The notes beneath the pieces were generated by a model, which saw nothing but the letters and a program-made list of their open reading frames with translations, was not told where the DNA came from and searched no databases. From contig CACCPE010000002.1 of assembly GCA_902547825.1 (NCBI GenBank), positions 1 to 64,000 of the forward strand: 64,000 nt of DNA, given 5' to 3'. Source of the stretch: an uncultured Pelagibacteraceae bacterium. Its GTDB lineage: Bacteria > Pseudomonadota > Alphaproteobacteria > Pelagibacterales > Pelagibacteraceae. A program made the position numbers and the translations under genes. Positions 28,279-35,915 of this stretch are shown piece by piece; the first letter of the stretch is position 1; every line of letters starts with the position of its first letter.

Positions 28279-28362
28279 GCGGTCGTGCTGAAATTGGTAG
28301 ACAGGCACGCTTGAGGGGCGTGTGGGTTTCCCGTGAGAGTTCGAGTCTCTCCGACCGCACCA
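28279..28362 (+). tRNA. tRNA-Leu (anticodon GAG)
   Basis: The acceptor stem GCGGTCG/CGACCGC pairs fully. The anticodon stem CACGC/GCGTG holds the loop TTGAGGG, giving anticodon GAG. A long class II variable arm (around TGGGTTTCCCGT), the T stem GAGAG/CTCTC and an encoded CCA at 28360-28362 are visible. It marks the left border of the accessory glycan-type region at 28.4-35.0 kb. Confidence 0.95.
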
Positions 28363-28378
28363 AAATGATAGTATATAC

Positions 28379-28498
28379 ATGATAGAATATTTTAAAAAAA
28401 ATAAAAGAATTGTCCTTATAGTCTTAATTATTGCATTTATTGAATTGAGCGGATATGGAATTTTAGCATCACTTTCTAGACTTTTGAGTGTTTTTTAA
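28379..28498 (+). CDS. Small single-pass membrane peptide (39 aa), unknown function
   Basis: ATG 28379 opens 39 codons: MIEYFKKNKR, then a hydrophobic segment (IVLIVLIIAFIELSGYGILA) and a short tail SLSRLLSVF. A positively charged start followed by one membrane helix suggests a cytoplasm-in topology. It lies 17 bp after tRNA-Leu and stops 3 bp before the end of the convergent kinase gene, so it fills the gap exactly, which favours a real gene in this compact genome. No function can be assigned. It could also be a chance frame. Confidence 0.5.
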   Translation: MIEYFKKNKRIVLIVLIIAFIELSGYGILASLSRLLSVF

Positions 28499-28501
28499 TT
28501 T

Positions 28502-29200
28502 TTAATACATATGTTTTTTTAAAAATGATATGATTTCTTTAAGTTGTTTGTTTCTACCATCTTTTATTTTTTGAAATTTTCTATTTTGATCAATAAAAGA
28601 AATATCGAAATTGTTGTTCAATAAATATTTTTTAAAACTTTGTAAATGTATTTTTACGAATTCAGTAACAACTGATTGTATTGAAATTTGCCTATCTCTG
28701 ATTCTTTGAATTTTTCTAGACAAAGAGTTGTATACCTTTTCAATTAAAAGAACTCTAAGAATTGGTTTTTTTATTAATTTTATATCTTGATTAACATAAA
28801 TTCCCTCAAATATTATTAATCTATTTCTGATATAATTGATTTTAAGTTTTAAATTATTTTTACCAGATTTTCTATCATATAAGTTTTTAAGAATTAAAGT
28901 TTTGCTTTTTGATTTACCTGCTAAAAAATTTAATAATATTTTAAGTTTTTTCAAATCGTAGTGTAAATTATTTTGATTGAATTTAGAGTTTTTGATTTTT
29001 TTTGTTATTTTGATTCTTTTTGATCTAGGAAAAAGAAATAAGTCTTTACTTAAAATTGATACATATTTAAATTTTTTTTTTAGATTATCTTTTAGTAAAT
29101 TTGCAAATAAACTTTTTCCAGAGCATGTTATTCCATCAATTGTTATAAAATTTATATTTTTTTTTTTTAAGTTTTCAAAAATTTTTTTACTTAATTTCAT
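28502..29200 (-). CDS. P-loop kinase of uridine kinase/phosphoribulokinase type, substrate unknown
   Basis: 232 aa with an early Walker A motif DGITCSGKS (22-30) placed as in uridine kinases. A DLFLFPRS segment lies at the position of the DxFY substrate loop, a LIIFEGIYV strand corresponds to the FEG motif, and RKIQRIRDRQ resembles the R-x-x-R-D-x-x-x-R lid. The family phosphorylates nucleosides, glycerate, pantothenate and sugars, so the substrate is open. It is the last gene of a four-gene minus-strand operon with 14-bp overlap, next to GDPD, FkbM and GT2 genes. A sugar or polyol substrate is inferred from that context. Confidence 0.68.
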   Translation of the reverse strand: MKLSKKIFENLKKKNINFITIDGITCSGKSLFANLLKDNLKKKFKYVSILSKDLFLFPRSKRIKITKKIKNSKFNQNNLHYDLKKLKILLNFLAGKSKSKTLILKNLYDRKSGKNNLKLKINYIRNRLIIFEGIYVNQDIKLIKKPILRVLLIEKVYNSLSRKIQRIRDRQISIQSVVTEFVKIHLQSFKKYLLNNNFDISFIDQNRKFQKIKDGRNKQLKEIISFLKKHMY

Positions 29201-29789
29201 TTAAATATTTTTTCCAGATGTTAGGTCTTTTTGTACAAACCGCATCAAATTTTATATTATTTTTCTTTGAAAAAGTCGTAATTTTTTTTATCTCACTTAA
29301 TCTTTTTTTGTTTACCAACTCTGGGGAAACAATACAAATTTTTACATTCATATTTTTCAAAAAATTATAAAAAGATTTATCTAATTTTATTTCATTAAAG
29401 TTGTCTAACCATAGCCATTTAATCTTTTTAAATAATTCTTTTATTTTTTTCAAACCCTCATATTCTGAAAATCGCACTGATACTTTTGTTTTTTTCATAT
29501 TTTTTAACATAGTTGAAAACGTCTGATCATGAAAAAAAAAGTTTCTTATATTGTTCTTTCTCAGTATCTTTAAGATTTTATCCTCTAAACCCTCTTCTTT
29601 GACATTGAGCACAATAAGTTTGTGATTAAATTTTTTAATCCAATTTTCAAATCTTTCTCCCTTTTTAAAAGGATCATGATGAAGATAAATACCTTTGCTG
29701 TTTGATCTAAGGTCAATTTCGACACCAAAATCCTGGCTCACTCTATCTAATTCTTTAGAATTGTTCACCCTATGCTTAATAATTATCAT
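29187..29789 (-). CDS. Glycerophosphodiester phosphodiesterase-like protein
   Basis: 200 aa. The beginning matches the GDPD active site: KHR (His6-Arg7), VEIDLR (Glu24, Asp26) and HHDPF (His38, Asp39), the canonical metal and acid-base residues. The rest is shorter than the usual 240-350 aa but keeps alternating beta strands and helices of a TIM-like barrel. The family cleaves glycerophosphodiesters. Inside this cluster it might trim or transfer a phosphodiester-linked group on a glycan (inference). It overlaps both neighbours (14 bp and 4 bp). Confidence 0.7.
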   Translation of the reverse strand: MIIIKHRVNNSKELDRVSQDFGVEIDLRSNSKGIYLHHDPFKKGERFENWIKKFNHKLIVLNVKEEGLEDKILKILRKNNIRNFFFHDQTFSTMLKNMKKTKVSVRFSEYEGLKKIKELFKKIKWLWLDNFNEIKLDKSFYNFLKNMNVKICIVSPELVNKKRLSEIKKITTFSKKNNIKFDAVCTKRPNIWKKYLNEIK

Positions 29790-30580
29790 TTTGTAAAAAT
29801 TAAATTTTTTTTGTTGATAAAAAAGATATTAAATATTTTTTGTCCATTATATTTTTCAATTTCCCCTTTTAATTTGTTGTATATATATTTTTGGTAATTT
29901 AATTTTTTAAGCAATATGTAAATCTTATCACAAACAATCTTATCATACTCAACCATAATTATTGGGTTATATTTTTTTATTGTTTTTAAAGAACCCAAAA
30001 CACATTCATATTCGTGTCCCTCTATATCAATTTTTATAAAACTAGGCTTAAATTTATAATCATCAAGTTTTTTTGTATAAAATATCTCTTTTTTTATAAC
30101 AATTTTTTTAAGAAGATCTTTTACATGTAAAGAAGCTTGAAGTCTTTTTTTTACTCCACTTTTACTTAAACCTGCAATTTGTGAAATAATATGCTTTTTA
30201 AAATATGGAGTAAAAAATGATTGTTTTTTTTTTGAGTTGCTCAAAGCTACTTTCTTACAAGTAAAAAATTTGTCTTTAAACTCTATTTTTTTAAGGGTCT
30301 TAAAATTGAATTCATTAGGTTCAAAAGAAACAATTTTGGTCTTTCTTGTAAATTTTCGAATAATTTTATAACTCATACCGTCATTGGCACCTATATCTAT
30401 TATGAGTTTTTTTCCTTTGAAGAACCTATTGTTCTCCAATATCTTTATAAATTTAAAGTCGTTATCATATATTATTTTAGATAAATATTTTCCAATAAGG
30501 TATCTAGATATTAAAAAAAGATAAATATTAGAGCGACAAACTTTTTCAAAAAAATTAAGTATTAAACTGCCTTGTGTCAT
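29786..30580 (-). CDS. FkbM-family SAM-dependent methyltransferase
   Basis: 264 aa. The SAM motif KKLIIDIGANDGMS (about 57-70), the acidic loop IVSFEPNEFNF and the FkbM hallmark SFIKIDIEGHEYECVLGSL are present. It probably O-methylates a sugar or related cluster product. Unlike the FkbM at 11.4 kb it has EGHE rather than QGAE in the hallmark, so the two are separate lineages rather than a recent duplicate. It is coupled by 4-bp overlaps with GT2 upstream and GDPD downstream. Confidence 0.82.
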   Translation of the reverse strand: MTQGSLILNFFEKVCRSNIYLFLISRYLIGKYLSKIIYDNDFKFIKILENNRFFKGKKLIIDIGANDGMSYKIIRKFTRKTKIVSFEPNEFNFKTLKKIEFKDKFFTCKKVALSNSKKKQSFFTPYFKKHIISQIAGLSKSGVKKRLQASLHVKDLLKKIVIKKEIFYTKKLDDYKFKPSFIKIDIEGHEYECVLGSLKTIKKYNPIIMVEYDKIVCDKIYILLKKLNYQKYIYNKLKGEIEKYNGQKIFNIFFINKKNLIFTK

Positions 30581-31296
30581 TTTTTTTTGAAAATTCTCAA
30601 CTTAAACAAGTAAATAATGTTAAAAAAAATATGACTTATAAAATTTATAAAATTATTTTTCCATTTTGACTGGCCATATTTTCGAAGGTTGAAAACAACA
30701 TCGATAGTTTCAATCTGAATATTATTTTTTAAACATATATAAAATACATAAGTGTCTAGAGTAGTCCATTTATGCGGCATGTTAGGAAAATATTTCAAGA
30801 GATCTCTATCAAAAATTTTTGGTTGAGCATTTATTTCTCTCATTTTTTTTCCCAAAATTAATGAGGCTAAACTTTCATGAAACCTACTTACAATTCCATC
30901 AAAACCCCTATTATTAATTCTTACACCTTTACCAAATATCTTTTTCTTATCTTTTATTATTAAAAACAATTTAAAAAAATCAATTAATGGAGTTTGCAAA
31001 TCTGCGTGTGCCCACCCGATATAATCACCAGTGGCTTTTTTTAATCCTTCAAAGATTCCTCCTCCGTAACCTTTATTTAAATTTAAATCAACTAATTTAA
31101 TTACTACATTTGAAGATTTATTGTTTTTAATTTCTTGTTCAATGCGATTTTTTGTATTATCAGTTGATCCATTATTTACTAAAATTAACTCAGCTCGATA
31201 ATTTTGAATTGGCAAATCTAAAAATTCCTTACATAGAAATGGAATGTTTTTTTCTTCATTATAACATGGTAAGACTAAACTAATATTAAAAGACAT
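30577..31296 (-). CDS. Family 2 glycosyltransferase
   Basis: 239 aa, GT-A fold. It begins with ISLVLPCYNEEKNIPFLCKEF, then LILVNNGSTDNTKN, LNKGYGGGIFEGLKKATGDYIGWAHADLQTP and a closing LRKYGQSKWK. The pattern is closest to polyprenyl-phosphate sugar transferases of the DPM1/GtrB type, although the usual DxD reads HADLQ. No C-terminal membrane helices are obvious beyond a hydrophobic tail (about 215-235). It is the first gene of the minus-strand operon, divergent from the nucleotidyltransferase gene with a 47-bp shared upstream gap. Confidence 0.85.
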   Translation of the reverse strand: MSFNISLVLPCYNEEKNIPFLCKEFLDLPIQNYRAELILVNNGSTDNTKNRIEQEIKNNKSSNVVIKLVDLNLNKGYGGGIFEGLKKATGDYIGWAHADLQTPLIDFFKLFLIIKDKKKIFGKGVRINNRGFDGIVSRFHESLASLILGKKMREINAQPKIFDRDLLKYFPNMPHKWTTLDTYVFYICLKNNIQIETIDVVFNLRKYGQSKWKNNFINFISHIFFNIIYLFKLRIFKKK

Positions 31297-31343
31297 GTTT
31301 TATATTAAACCTAAATGTTACTTATACAAAACTTAATTATTAA

Positions 31344-32846
31344 ATGAAGCAATTTTTGATTATTCCTTTAGGCGGGTTAGGAACAAGATTTACCAGTGCT
31401 GGCTATAATACTTACAAACCTTTTCTGAAAACTTCTAAAAAAACTAGAATAATCGATAATATAGTATCAAATTTTCCATTAAAGCAGACAAAAATTATTA
31501 TTATTTGCAATGAAAAAAAGTATGATTATGTAAGAAAAAATTTTAAAAGAAAAAACACAATTTTTATAAAGATAAGAAATCATAAACTGGGACCGGTTCA
31601 ATCTATTTACTTAGCAAGAAAAGAATTAAAAAAAATAATTAAAAACAATAAAGTTTTTATCTCTTACTCAGATATTAATTGGAAATGGAATTATAATTCT
31701 ATAAAAAAAAACTTAAATAATAAAAAGATTGTAATATTTAGTCATTTTGGATTTCATCCTCATCTTGAAATTGACTCAGCATCAGACTTCTTTTTATGCA
31801 ACAAAAAAAACGAAGTCATAAAAGTTTCTCAAAAAAAAACTATTACAGACAACTATCAGAAAAATTATTTAGCAATTGGATGTTATTACTTTAAAAATTT
31901 TAAATATTTTGAGAATTTTTTTAATATTAAAAATTTTAATAAAATTAATAAAAAAAAAGAAATTTATTTAATTGATTTCTTAGAATTTTGTTTAAAAAGA
32001 AAAATTATAATCAATCATTTTAATGTAGATAAATTTGCACATCTTGGCGATCCTTATCAATATGAAAATTTTTATCAATGGAAAAATATACTCGATCATA
32101 ACTTTTCAAAAAGTATGAAATTTAAAAAATACGATAGTGTTATGCTTATGGCTGGAAAAGGTAAAAGAGTTAAAAATTTAAAAGAGAAAAAACCTTTTTT
32201 AAAGATAAAGAAATTTAAGGCTTTTGAATATATTTTTAATAAATTTGGTTCAAATAAAAAATTTATAATTACCAATGAAAAGTTGCATAATCTAAACCAA
32301 AATAAATATTTTAAATTTAAAATTAAAAGCACTAAATCGATGCTTCAAACAGTTGAAAAGTCTTTAAATATTATTCAGAATTTGAAAAAATTCTTTATTT
32401 TATCTTGTGATTGCTTTGGATTATTTGAGAAAAAAAAGTTTGATAGTTTTTTAAAATTAAATAATCCCGATATTGTTCTTTTTGCTTTCGATATTTCTAA
32501 AATACAAAAAAAATTGCAAAATGCACACACCACAATAGATTTAAAAAAAAACTCATTAATTAATTCAATTCAAGTGAAGAAATATTCAAATAAAAAACAA
32601 GTATTAGGTCACGCAGGCTTTTTTTGGGTTAAAAATTCAAATATTTTTAAAGATTTAAAAAAATTTAGATCCTCAAAAAAATTCAATAGAGAAATACTTT
32701 TAGATGACTATTTTAAATTTTTATTTGATAAAAAATTATGTAAAGTAAGATGTTATAAACTAAAAGAATATATTCATTTTGGCTCGGTAACAGAATATCT
32801 AGAATTAAGATATTGGAGTAAATATTTTGAAAATGAAAATAGATAA
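31344..32846 (+). CDS. Bifunctional protein with two tandem sugar nucleotidyltransferase domains
   Basis: 500 aa with an internal duplication. Domain 1 has the nucleotide loop PLGGLGTRF (8-16), KPF (25-27), an SYSD metal site (107-110) and a closing HLGDPYQYENFYQW (233-246). Domain 2 has MAGKGKR (269-275), KPF (283-285), SCDCFG (354-359), GHAGFFW (422-428) and a closing HFGSVTEYLELRYW (478-491). Both resemble NTP_transferase domains that make nucleotide-activated sugars from sugar phosphates. The GxGxR and lysine motifs survive in both, so both may be active. It overlaps the GatZ-like gene by 20 bp. Substrate and nucleotide are unknown. Confidence 0.78.
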   Translation: MKQFLIIPLGGLGTRFTSAGYNTYKPFLKTSKKTRIIDNIVSNFPLKQTKIIIICNEKKYDYVRKNFKRKNTIFIKIRNHKLGPVQSIYLARKELKKIIKNNKVFISYSDINWKWNYNSIKKNLNNKKIVIFSHFGFHPHLEIDSASDFFLCNKKNEVIKVSQKKTITDNYQKNYLAIGCYYFKNFKYFENFFNIKNFNKINKKKEIYLIDFLEFCLKRKIIINHFNVDKFAHLGDPYQYENFYQWKNILDHNFSKSMKFKKYDSVMLMAGKGKRVKNLKEKKPFLKIKKFKAFEYIFNKFGSNKKFIITNEKLHNLNQNKYFKFKIKSTKSMLQTVEKSLNIIQNLKKFFILSCDCFGLFEKKKFDSFLKLNNPDIVLFAFDISKIQKKLQNAHTTIDLKKNSLINSIQVKKYSNKKQVLGHAGFFWVKNSNIFKDLKKFRSSKKFNREILLDDYFKFLFDKKLCKVRCYKLKEYIHFGSVTEYLELRYWSKYFENENR

Positions 32847-34050
32847 ACTTATTAAAAGAAAAGCTCTCCCATCATTTTGTACTTCAAATTTTGATGTTTT
32901 GAAAACTATTATATTTTTTTGCAAAATTAATAGACTTCCTTGTTTAGTTGAGTGTACCTCCAATCAAGTAAATCAAAACGGTGGATATACTAAAAATACA
33001 CCTAAATCATTTATGAATAAAATAATTAAAATAAGTAAAAATTTAAAATTTAAAAATTTATTTTTAGGAGGAGATCATCTTGGACCTCTTCCTTGGAAAA
33101 ACACCTCAAAAAAAATTGCTCTAAAAAATTCAATTAAATTAATAAGAGATTTTTTAAAACAAAAGTATTGTAAGATTCACATTGATACTTCTATTAAATG
33201 TAAAGATGATAAAGCAATAAATAATAAAATAATTTTTGAGAGAACTAAAGAGATATTAGAAACTCCTTCTATTAAAAAAAAACTTAAAGGCAAATTTTTA
33301 ATTATTGGTACAGAGGTACCATTATCAGGAAGTGGTGATGAAAAAAAAATGACAATTACAAGCGAAAGGCAAATTAAAGATGAGTGTGATCAATTTAAGG
33401 ACGTTCTTAAAGAATTAAAACTGAAAAATAAAAAATTTGGATTAGTAATTGAGCCAGGTATGAAATATATGCATTCAACAGTAGTTGTACCTAAATTTAA
33501 AAAATTTTATATAAAAAAGAAAATTAGCAAAGAAGAAAATTTTGTTTTTGAAGCCCATTCTACTGACTTTCAATCTCAGCAAATTTTATCAAAACTTGTT
33601 CATAATAATTTTAAGTTTTTAAAGGTAGGGCCTGAATTAACTTTAAATTACTCTAAGGCAATATTTTTTATGCATCAAATAGAAAAAAAATTATTTAAGA
33701 CAAATCATTCAAATATTAAAAAAGTTATTTTGAACTCAATGCTTAATAATCCTAAATATTGGAAAGACTACTACAATAGAAAGAATAAAAATCTTTATTT
33801 AACAAGTAAATTAGATAGGATGAGGTATTATTTACACACTAATTCAGTTAATAAATCAATCAATTTACTAAAAAAAAATATTAATAAAATTACTTTAGAA
33901 AAAAATTTTTCTTTATTTAATCAAATTAACAAAAAAGAAATTTTTAGATATCGCAAAAATAAACTTTCAAATTTTGAAATGATTAAACTTATTTTTATTA
34001 CAAAGGTATTAAAAAAATATTTTACTGCATGTGGTTTTACAATCAATTAG
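32827..34050 (+). CDS. GatZ/KbaZ-like D-tagatose-1,6-bisphosphate aldolase subunit
   Basis: 407 aa. Diagnostic motifs are LVECTSNQVNQNGGYTKNTP (40-59), LFLGGDHLGPLPW (78-90), KIHIDTSIKCKDD, IIGTEVPLSGSGDE, GLVIEPGMKY, FEAHSTDFQSQQIL and FLKVGPELTL. In enterobacteria GatZ and KbaZ stabilise the class II aldolases GatY/KbaY in galactitol or N-acetylgalactosamine catabolism. No gatY, PTS or dehydrogenase gene is nearby here. It pairs instead with a nucleotidyltransferase protein, so it may have been recruited for biosynthesis of a ketose-derived sugar (inference). ATG 32833 is an alternative start. Confidence 0.82.
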   Translation: MKMKIDKLIKRKALPSFCTSNFDVLKTIIFFCKINRLPCLVECTSNQVNQNGGYTKNTPKSFMNKIIKISKNLKFKNLFLGGDHLGPLPWKNTSKKIALKNSIKLIRDFLKQKYCKIHIDTSIKCKDDKAINNKIIFERTKEILETPSIKKKLKGKFLIIGTEVPLSGSGDEKKMTITSERQIKDECDQFKDVLKELKLKNKKFGLVIEPGMKYMHSTVVVPKFKKFYIKKKISKEENFVFEAHSTDFQSQQILSKLVHNNFKFLKVGPELTLNYSKAIFFMHQIEKKLFKTNHSNIKKVILNSMLNNPKYWKDYYNRKNKNLYLTSKLDRMRYYLHTNSVNKSINLLKKNINKITLEKNFSLFNQINKKEIFRYRKNKLSNFEMIKLIFITKVLKKYFTACGFTIN

Positions 34051-35044
34051 CTTGTTCCTTAGGAGGAAAAAAAGATAAAAATATTAGGGGTAACAAAATT
34101 AATCTAACAGCCACATGATGCAGAGGAGTTGCAATAATAAAAGTTGCCAGATAAATAAGAACAATTAATCCAAAATAAGTATTCTTAATTTTAAATTTAT
34201 AAAAATTGTAAGCAACTAACCCAAAGGGAATCAAAAAATTAATTAATAATAATTTTAAAAAAGAAAAACCTCCAATTGATGATATATCAGTCAAATTTAC
34301 TTGACCATCTTGATGCTCAAAAGGAATAAAAAATTTAGGATTAATCATACAATTAATTGTTTTAAAATTTAAAAATATAAAGATTAAAAATACAATTATA
34401 AAAATTAAAAAAAATTGTTTAAAATTTTTATTAAATATTAACCATGTTAATAGAATTATAAAACCACTTTCTCTGTTAAGCACAGCAAGAGATGTTGTGA
34501 CTACAAATAAAATTATGTTTTTTTTCTTACTAGCTAAAAGTGAAATCGTTAAAAAAAACATTTCAAATATAGAGTATGAGTATTCCCCAAGAGAATGCTG
34601 GAAAACAAAAGCAATATAAAATAGAAATAAAAAAATATGAGCAACATTCAAATTAAAAGTTTTATTTAGAAATATAAGTGTAATAAAAATTATAAATGAA
34701 TGAATTAAGATATTTACATAGTAGGGTGAATTTGAATTAAGCCTATCGAAAAATTGAAAAATATTTTTTAGAAAATAAGATTTTACCCATCTGACCTTAT
34801 GTCTGTCGTGCATATTGCCAGTAACTTGACAATCCTTATTTAAAATATACTCATAACTTTCTTCATTAAGCAGTTTTTTATTAATATTATCTTTAAATTC
34901 AAGATTACTAAATAATTTAAAATTACCCTCATTCGTAACATTAAATTTTTCACTGCTATTGTGGATATAGTTAATAAAAATAAAAATTATTAAAAAAAAT
35001 GATATTAAAAATATAAAATTTTTTTCATTAAAGTATTTAAACAT
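34043..35044 (-). CDS. Polytopic membrane protein, possible GT-C-type transferase, unknown
   Basis: 333 aa with an N-terminal hydrophobic segment (about 10-27), a loop of about 80 polar residues carrying HDRHKVRW, and then seven or eight hydrophobic segments (for example around 110-125, 130-150, 155-170, 210-225, 265-280 and 290-325). The loop-then-helices arrangement recalls GT-C glycosyltransferases or polysaccharide polymerases, but no family motif is certain. The stop overlaps the convergent GatZ-like gene by 8 bp. The start overlaps ygfZ by 8 bp on the same strand, so it is probably transcribed with ygfZ. Confidence 0.6.
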   Translation of the reverse strand: MFKYFNEKNFIFLISFFLIIFIFINYIHNSSEKFNVTNEGNFKLFSNLEFKDNINKKLLNEESYEYILNKDCQVTGNMHDRHKVRWVKSYFLKNIFQFFDRLNSNSPYYVNILIHSFIIFITLIFLNKTFNLNVAHIFLFLFYIAFVFQHSLGEYSYSIFEMFFLTISLLASKKKNIILFVVTTSLAVLNRESGFIILLTWLIFNKNFKQFFLIFIIVFLIFIFLNFKTINCMINPKFFIPFEHQDGQVNLTDISSIGGFSFLKLLLINFLIPFGLVAYNFYKFKIKNTYFGLIVLIYLATFIIATPLHHVAVRLILLPLIFLSFFPPKEQAN

Positions 35045-35915
35045 TTAATAATTCAACCTTTTTCGAGTTATTTAGTCTAATATTATTTTTAAATTGTGAA
35101 ATATCGGGATCATAAAGCTTTATCAATGCAAACGCATAGGGCGAACCTATTAATACTTTTCCAATTTTAATTTCATTAAACAATAAATCATCACCAAATT
35201 TTAGTTTCTCCTCAGATTTTATAGAAAACAATTTACGTCTTAATTTATTTTTTAATCTCATTCGAGCAGTATTTTCCTGACCAACAAAACACCCTTTCTT
35301 AAAATCTATAGCTTTATGTTTTTCAAAGTTAGCTTCTAAACCAAATAATTGATGTTTCAAATTTTCTAGACCTTTTTCAGGAACTCCGTGATTAAAAGCA
35401 TTTATGTAGTAATTTGAACTATCAATTATTTGTAAATTTAGCTTTTTAATAGTCAAATATAGCTTCTCTAAGTTCGATAATATTCTAGCACCGAGTTTCT
35501 CACCCCTTGGATCAGAAAAAATAGGTGTATCTCTATAAGTAATAGTATTTTCATTTTGTTCTAATTCTTTTTGCAATTCTTTAAATTTTAAATAATTTAA
35601 TATTCCAATAACATATTCAGAGGAAAGATCTTTAATTTCAACTTTTGATCTTAACTTGTATTTTGATAAATCTTTTATTAAATCTTCAGTTGAGTTTTCG
35701 CTACAGTCTAGAAGATATCCACTATCTTTTTTTATAATAAAAAATTCATTTAAATATTTACCCTGAGGAGTAAGCAAGGCTGCAAATATAGAGTTTTTTA
35801 AAGAAACTTTATTAATATCATTCGTAATTATATTTTGAAGAAAGTCTTTAGTATCTTCTCCACTTATTAAGATTACCCCTCTTTTTTCTAAAATTACGAC
35901 TTGATCTTTTTTCAT
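35037..35915 (-). CDS. ygfZ: Folate-binding Fe-S cluster assembly factor YgfZ (GcvT-like)
   Basis: 292 aa. The signature KGCFVGQENTARMRLKNKLRRKLF contains the KGCxxGQE motif with the redox-active Cys that defines YgfZ/IBA57. The start VVILEKRGVILISGEDTKDFLQNIITND matches the GcvT-like N-terminal domain. The family supports repair or assembly of certain Fe-S enzymes, for example MiaB-type radical SAM proteins, using tetrahydrofolate. It is divergent from the dihydroorotase gene with a 34-bp gap. Confidence 0.92.
   Translation of the reverse strand: MKKDQVVILEKRGVILISGEDTKDFLQNIITNDINKVSLKNSIFAALLTPQGKYLNEFFIIKKDSGYLLDCSENSTEDLIKDLSKYKLRSKVEIKDLSSEYVIGILNYLKFKELQKELEQNENTITYRDTPIFSDPRGEKLGARILSNLEKLYLTIKKLNLQIIDSSNYYINAFNHGVPEKGLENLKHQLFGLEANFEKHKAIDFKKGCFVGQENTARMRLKNKLRRKLFSIKSEEKLKFGDDLLFNEIKIGKVLIGSPYAFALIKLYDPDISQFKNNIRLNNSKKVELLNV

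Follow-up and report, generated by a model that had tools for sequence, protein, structure and literature searches.

A gene cassette exchanged between SAR11 genomes is predicted to make, activate and transfer a rare ketose-derived sugar

The present analysis concerns a cluster of seven genes in a 64,000-nucleotide stretch of DNA from an uncultured Pelagibacteraceae bacterium (contig CACCPE010000002.1, positions 1 to 64,000; hereafter the window). The cluster occupies an insertion site between two core genes: on the left tRNA-Leu(GAG) (28279-28362, plus strand), detected by ARAGORN and seen at both empty and occupied sites in relatives, and on the right ygfZ (35037-35915, minus strand), placed by the list of open reading frames (ORFs) and by a survey of the site. 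A preliminary description of this DNA had reported seven genes in the interval, and all seven ORFs were found on the strands it had given. Four are read from the minus strand: a P-loop kinase related to phosphoribulokinase (PRK) and uridine kinase (KIN, 28502-29200), a TIM-barrel protein resembling glycerophosphodiester phosphodiesterases (the GDPD-like protein, 29187-29789), an FkbM-family methyltransferase (29786-30580; PF05050, E 6e-14; TIGR01444, E 1.2e-15) and a GT2 glycosyltransferase (30577-31296; PF00535, E 8e-19). Their overlaps of 14, 4 and 4 bp, respectively, agree with the 4-14 bp first reported. Beyond a divergent gap, whose length of 47 bp was confirmed, the plus strand encodes a tandem sugar nucleotidyltransferase of two domains (NT-NT, 31344-32846) and a GatZ/KbaZ-like protein (32833-34050), a predicted ketose-phosphate C4-epimerase. 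The overlap of 20 bp assigned earlier to this pair holds with the alternative TTG start at 32827; with the ATG at 32833, which matches the start of the homologues and is probably the one used, it is 14 bp. The last gene, read from the minus strand, codes for a polytopic membrane protein (MEMB, 34043-35044) and shares 8 bp with the end of ygfZ.

The left border had to be moved. Position 28379, given earlier as the start of the cluster, belongs to a separate 39-codon ORF (MIEYFKKNKRIVLIVLIIAFIELSGYGILASLSRLLSVF, 28379-28498, plus strand), which the DNA of six empty sites and its translation assign to the core and not to the cassette. Since this ORF is also present at empty sites, the cassette was taken to extend from about 28499 to 35036. 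The ORF, which follows tRNA-Leu, is predicted to be hydrophobic, occurs in six of the six empty sites compared and possibly encodes a conserved small membrane protein of SAR11. The G+C fraction of the cassette is 0.218 as against 0.300 for the remaining window, of which it forms the lowest-G+C 6.5-kb stretch. No integrase gene was found among the seven cassette proteins by Pfam scan.

In order to establish whether the genes form a unit, as first proposed, their arrangement was compared among relatives. Five other SAR11 genomes have KIN-GDPD-FkbM-GT2 / NT-NT-GatZ in this order, the six-gene block lying at the nadA-ygfZ site in three of them (G015, G319 and G525) and at other sites in two (G270 and G328). 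This conservation at the same site and elsewhere bears out the proposal of one functional unit and excludes a chance origin of the gene set. KIN is conserved in all loci of this kind (type A, defined below). In G319, an additional DUF6044 gene of 588 aa stands between KIN and the GDPD-like gene (L042, 10552-12318). Furthermore, the host genes and the cassette give opposite orders of relatedness to the window: the identity of nadA is 75% in G270 and 88% in G015, and that of ppdK 75% and 90%, whereas the six core cassette proteins are 63-73% identical in G270 and 53-71% in G015, all six being nearer in G270. Because the host genes of G270 are the more distant and its cassette proteins the nearer, transfer of the whole unit is indicated.

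The insertion site itself is variable. In 21 of the 37 surveyed relatives with both flanks, nadA, tRNA-Leu and ygfZ lie within a gap of 259-306 bp, the others holding varied cargo; as the sample was partly picked for carrying the membrane protein, this fraction is no population estimate. MEMB accompanies cassettes of three types at this site: A in the window, G015, G319 and G525, B in G511, and D in G029, whose set is divided between two contigs. Among these, G029 is the nearest to the window by nadA (97% identity), yet it carries different genes. The nadA-ygfZ site is thus an island at which entire sugar modules are swapped between close relatives. Other cargo was observed in L118, L124, L125, L129-L131, L139, L140, L143 and L145-L150, with two recurring sets of 399+561+235 aa and 448+142+147 aa.

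When 84,980 species were scanned with an alignment of the GDPD-like protein, 34 loci were found in SAR11, SAR86, Prochlorococcus, Bacteroidota, Neomarinimicrobiota, Micrarchaeota and Aenigmatarchaeota. Both NT and GT2 genes lie within 10 kb of the GDPD-like gene in 32 of these 34 loci, and the three genes are all lacking from each of 37 control loci in the same genus. By the accompanying enzymes, which we labelled as supply sets A to D, the loci comprise 5 of type A, 10 of type B, 4 of type C, 5 of type D, 1 mixed C/D and 9 with no assigned set. Type A has GatZ. Type B has an AraD-like aldolase, a GtrA-RPE fusion (the GtrA part assigned by sequence inspection), a 2H-phosphoesterase-like protein (weak match) and a polymerase-beta-like/His-phosphatase fusion. 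Type C has a split transketolase, an FGGY kinase and a HAD phosphatase, and type D, whose genes were named by sequence and BLAST and not by Pfam, has RPE, a xylose-isomerase-like protein and two MDR dehydrogenases. The GatZ part is therefore replaced by other sugar-phosphate enzymes around a constant core. The single-cell genome AG-909-N22 carries type A and type B cassettes at different loci (L041 and L055), so that supply sets can coexist.

The family of the GDPD-like protein is uncatalogued: it has a GDPD fold and no Pfam match. None of its 29 members gave a convincing Pfam match and PF03009 was never matched, while phrog_35688, a family whose function is not known, matches 28 of the 29. 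By hhalign, the comparison with canonical SAR11 GDPDs was not significant, although the E-x-D and H-D motifs align. The AlphaFold model (pLDDT 91.6) has GDPDs as its top structural matches (1o1z: Z 17.5, root-mean-square deviation 2.4, 179 residues). The protein thus has, by its model, the GDPD TIM-barrel fold, and its phosphodiesterase activity is a prediction. Within the family, four residues (His6, Glu24, His38 and Lys64) never vary and Asp26 hardly does. The intact His/Glu/Asp set of the preliminary description is accordingly kept in the H, E-x-D and H-D motifs and lost at the third metal ligand: this position, placed by motif two residues before the Lys and not by superposition, usually holds the acidic residue of E-x-K (E/D-x-K in canonical SAR11 GDPDs) and is Asn62 in nearly all members, with Glu in the two from Aenigmatarchaeota.

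The same protein occurs on ten IMG/VR contigs, all ten of which have NT domains. Two of them, L164 and L165, carry GT2 and resemble loci of the cellular type; on the others (L166-L173), the cassette GT2 was not detected by BLAST. Contigs with both GDPD-like and NT genes also hold PRK kinase, HAD and aldolase-II genes. The near-identical L167 and L168 have TAGT along with all of the type D set, L166 has TAGT, L173 a thymidylate-synthase-like gene, and L170 a thymidylate-synthase-like gene, a TAGT match below the cut-off and a HAD-PRK fusion. This gene content suggests that L166-L173, putative viral contigs from uncultured sources, carry unrecorded sets for DNA base glycosylation. Since BLAST did not detect the cassette GT2 on them, the GDPD-like protein is also suggested to work in sugar activation, and not to act upon a polyprenyl-linked product. 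The editing role first proposed for it gives way to this: the protein travels with NT-NT on these contigs and probably belongs to the activation route, and the cleavage of a lipid- or polymer-bound diester was downgraded as a candidate function.

Searches of viral contigs with the tandem NT alignment returned no relatives. Sequenced phages gave no GDPD-like match by tblastn with three queries, so that the viral members lie on uncultured contigs. Phage RB69 was rejected as a direct homologue, since it has no BLAST or hidden Markov model (HMM) match to the GDPD-like/NT core. Cyanophages S-SM2 and Bellamy have a tandem NT and a class II aldolase but no GDPD-like family member by HMM. In Synechococcus phage S-SM2, SSM2_208 (L174, 11614-12060; 148 aa, annotated as hypothetical) shows HRG, E-x-D and H-D motifs like those of the GDPD-like protein and is found near the tandem NT, two genes past the aldolase.

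The GatZ-like protein matches PF08013 along nearly its whole profile (positions 12-419 of 420, 287.9 bits against a cut-off of 26.7, E 1.4e-85) and the structure 2fiq with E 7e-48. E. coli GatZ and KbaZ, long named aldolase chaperones, turn fructose-6-phosphate into tagatose-6-phosphate, and Cys20, Glu44, Asp87, His88, Glu171, His257 and Lys279 have been proposed as the zinc ligands and catalytic residues of GatZ (PMC11907403). All seven are identical in the five cassette GatZ proteins examined, the E. coli sequence being taken from the 2fiq alignment and completed by its first 15 and last two residues. A GatY-type aldolase (PF01116) was found in none of the six type A genomes, which are incomplete (three are at least 90% complete), and was detected in 11 of 14 controls. 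With no such partner, a role as aldolase subunit, as proposed at first, is unlikely and the protein is better read as a C4-epimerase (PMC11907403). Weak PF08013 matches in G134 and G161 were set aside, their surroundings being devoid of the cassette core.

For NT-NT, the NTP_transferase profile was matched with E 1.5e-7 and each half has a GxGxR...K loop; in its model (pLDDT 87.4), both halves resemble sugar nucleotidyltransferases (4evw, GlmU and RmlA structures). The nearest solved relatives of GT2 are the polyprenyl-phosphate glycosyltransferases ArnC, dolichol-phosphate mannose synthase (DPMS) and GtrB (9hwj, E 2.7e-10; 5mlz, E 3.3e-9; 5ekp, E 1.9e-7). The assignment of KIN as a PRK-like kinase is borderline (PF00485, E 1e-4; udk, E 1.5e-8), and a search of the PDB with KIN gave no match. 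Next to GDPD-like genes, two fusion proteins (L045, 10576-12609; L165, 8579-10657) join a PRK-like kinase domain to a GT87/ALG3-like membrane domain and so link the kinase with a membrane transferase.

Mobility of the cassette and its biosynthetic role are well supported. The general idea of the preliminary description, in which GatZ supplies a sugar phosphate, the nucleotidyltransferases activate it and GT2 and MEMB attach it, is well supported too, its product being a prediction. With moderate confidence, we favour a horizontally exchanged cassette that would make, activate and transfer a rare sugar derived from a ketose, the cell surface being its most likely destination; the sequence of steps, the choice of tagatose as product and the part played by the GDPD-like protein are inferred from the gene families and their associations. 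First, given the activity of its family and its intact active site, the GatZ-like protein would epimerise fructose-6-phosphate at C4 to tagatose-6-phosphate, or act likewise on a related ketose phosphate. By its family, KIN would add a phosphate in the manner of PRK, whose target is C1 of a ketose phosphate, ribulose-5-phosphate. Then, in the cytosol, NT-NT and the GDPD-like protein would convert the sugar phosphate, through a phosphodiester intermediate, into a transferable nucleotide sugar; this joint step is proposed because of their near-constant association. That activation of a ketose phosphate has a precedent is indicated by capsule synthesis, in which fructose-6-phosphate and CTP yield CDP-6-fructose (PMC10918830).

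In the following step, GT2 would put the sugar probably onto polyprenyl phosphate and MEMB would finish the transfer outside the membrane, as suggested by structural relatives and by the GtrA and GT-C genes of sister loci. Gtr systems combine a GtrB-like GT2, a GtrA flippase and GT-C proteins. Finally, FkbM proteins being O-methyltransferases, the cassette member would O-methylate the product. We also considered, as a tentative and rather improbable extension, that NT-NT and the GDPD-like protein form a general device for the activation of sugars derived from ketose phosphates, for cell surface glycans and for viral DNA. One NT half would activate the terminal phosphate; from the nucleotide diester, the GDPD-like protein would produce a phosphate that is cyclic or anomeric, and the remaining half would make the final nucleotide sugar.

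Several points weigh against the favoured pathway, besides the partly selected survey of the insertion site. The cassette contains no reductase, phosphatase or isomerase that would lead from tagatose-6-phosphate to an anomeric phosphate. At 29% identity to E. coli GatZ, the GatZ-like protein may have another substrate. No hydrophobic segment above threshold was found in GT2 for the C-terminal membrane helices of the ArnC/GtrB type; some DPMS also lack them. The EpsG-like match of MEMB is weak, being below the Pfam cut-off. In G525 (L044 / L132), the type A cassette is intact except for the GDPD-like ORF, which is broken into two pieces of 145 and 60 aa, either by decay or through a sequencing error.

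Among the alternatives, the one that survives best accepts a real sugar-activation cassette and makes its product an ordinary aldose, for instance a galactose or arabinose derivative, from the unusual ketose-phosphate start. Host isomerases could convert ketose to aldose phosphates, and the uncharacterised set of phage RB69, with an isomerase and an NTP-transferase, is thought to make activated arabinose (PMC6024577, PMC13390438); since type A has no aldose-ketose isomerase and the RB69 genes have no BLAST match to the cassette core, we consider this possible but doubtful. A teichoic-acid-like route was also envisaged, in which the NT would make a CDP-polyol or CDP-ketose on the terminal phosphate, the sugar phosphate would be transferred and the GDPD-like protein would trim a phosphodiester. 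Type A has no reductase for such a route, the cassette GT2 resembles polyprenyl-phosphate sugar transferases and not CDP-polyol phosphotransferases, and the viral GDPD-like/NT genes adjoin TAGT, a glycosyltransferase family. Thus, in spite of the CDP-6-fructose/CDP-glucitol precedent (PMC10918830), of the two alcohol dehydrogenases in type D sets and of the classical action of GDPD-fold enzymes on glycerophosphodiesters, this route appears unlikely. A catabolic route of the tagatose/galactitol type, in which GatZ would be an aldolase subunit or an epimerase feeding glycolysis, would suit a family whose members GatZ and KbaZ serve such routes in E. coli (PMC11907403), but it is very improbable: no known catabolic route was indicated, the GatY-type aldolase was not found in the six genomes (three at least 90% complete), the synteny with NT, GT2 and FkbM is conserved in all six and type A has no transporter or sugar dehydrogenase. 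Finally, that two unrelated short operons, one for glycan decoration (KIN-GDPD-FkbM-GT2) and one for a sugar nucleotide (NT-NT-GatZ), share a hot spot, as their divergence around the 47-bp gap and the varied cargo of relatives might suggest, is hardly credible when the halves occur together at different genomic locations, move together and have NT and GDPD-like genes linked in every cassette type.

The cassette thus probably makes and attaches an unusual sugar at the SAR11 surface, and viruses with the core genes appear to use them to decorate their own DNA. The result is a specific predicted pathway, together with a family of GDPD-like proteins, so far uncatalogued, that is linked with sugar nucleotidyltransferases in bacteria, in archaea and on viral contigs. 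Module exchange at the nadA-ygfZ site could alter phage recognition. In the open-licence PMC literature, no description of the cassette was found, and a search there for named ketofuranoses in bacterial glycans gave no useful result. Mobile surface-glycan cassettes are already known; what is new here is the uncatalogued core enzyme.

With regard to known systems, the GatZ-like protein is of the same family and full length as the E. coli fructose-6-phosphate-tagatose-6-phosphate C4-epimerases GatZ/KbaZ and has all seven catalytic residues; those enzymes act in galactitol/GalNAc catabolism, whereas this one stands among glycan genes, at 29% identity and with no GatY partner found in the type A genomes. 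The CDP-6-D-fructose/CDP-6-D-glucitol pathway of Campylobacter HS:5 (PMC10918830) likewise has a nucleotidyltransferase that takes a ketose phosphate towards a surface polysaccharide, the specificity of the cassette NT being predicted; it employs a single nucleotidyltransferase and an SDR reductase, and neither a GDPD-like protein nor a PRK-like kinase nor GatZ has been described for this step. In comparison with Gtr (GtrA/GtrB/GtrC) and ArnC systems, the cassette GT2 is nearest GtrB, ArnC and DPMS and sister loci hold GtrA-like and GT-C-like membrane proteins, but the cassette carries its own sugar-activation genes, its GT2 is devoid of membrane helices and the window cassette has no GtrA. 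The GDPD-like family shares with the glycerophosphodiester phosphodiesterases of PF03009 the fold (Z 17.5 to 1o1z) and the H, E-x-D and H-D motifs, and differs in the lack of a detectable sequence match, its size of about 200 aa, the Asn at the third ligand and its nearly constant sugar-NT context. As in RB69 arabinosylation (PMC6024577, PMC13390438), sugar-phosphate enzymes and an NTP-transferase lie near thymidylate-synthase-like and glycosyltransferase genes; RB69 has no GDPD-like or NT family member by BLAST/HMM, the members described here being on uncultured viral contigs. For arabinose-modified phage DNA, these papers call the route to the activated sugar uncharacterised (PMC6024577, PMC13390438), and the viral GDPD-like/NT sets are candidates for such a route in phage biology.

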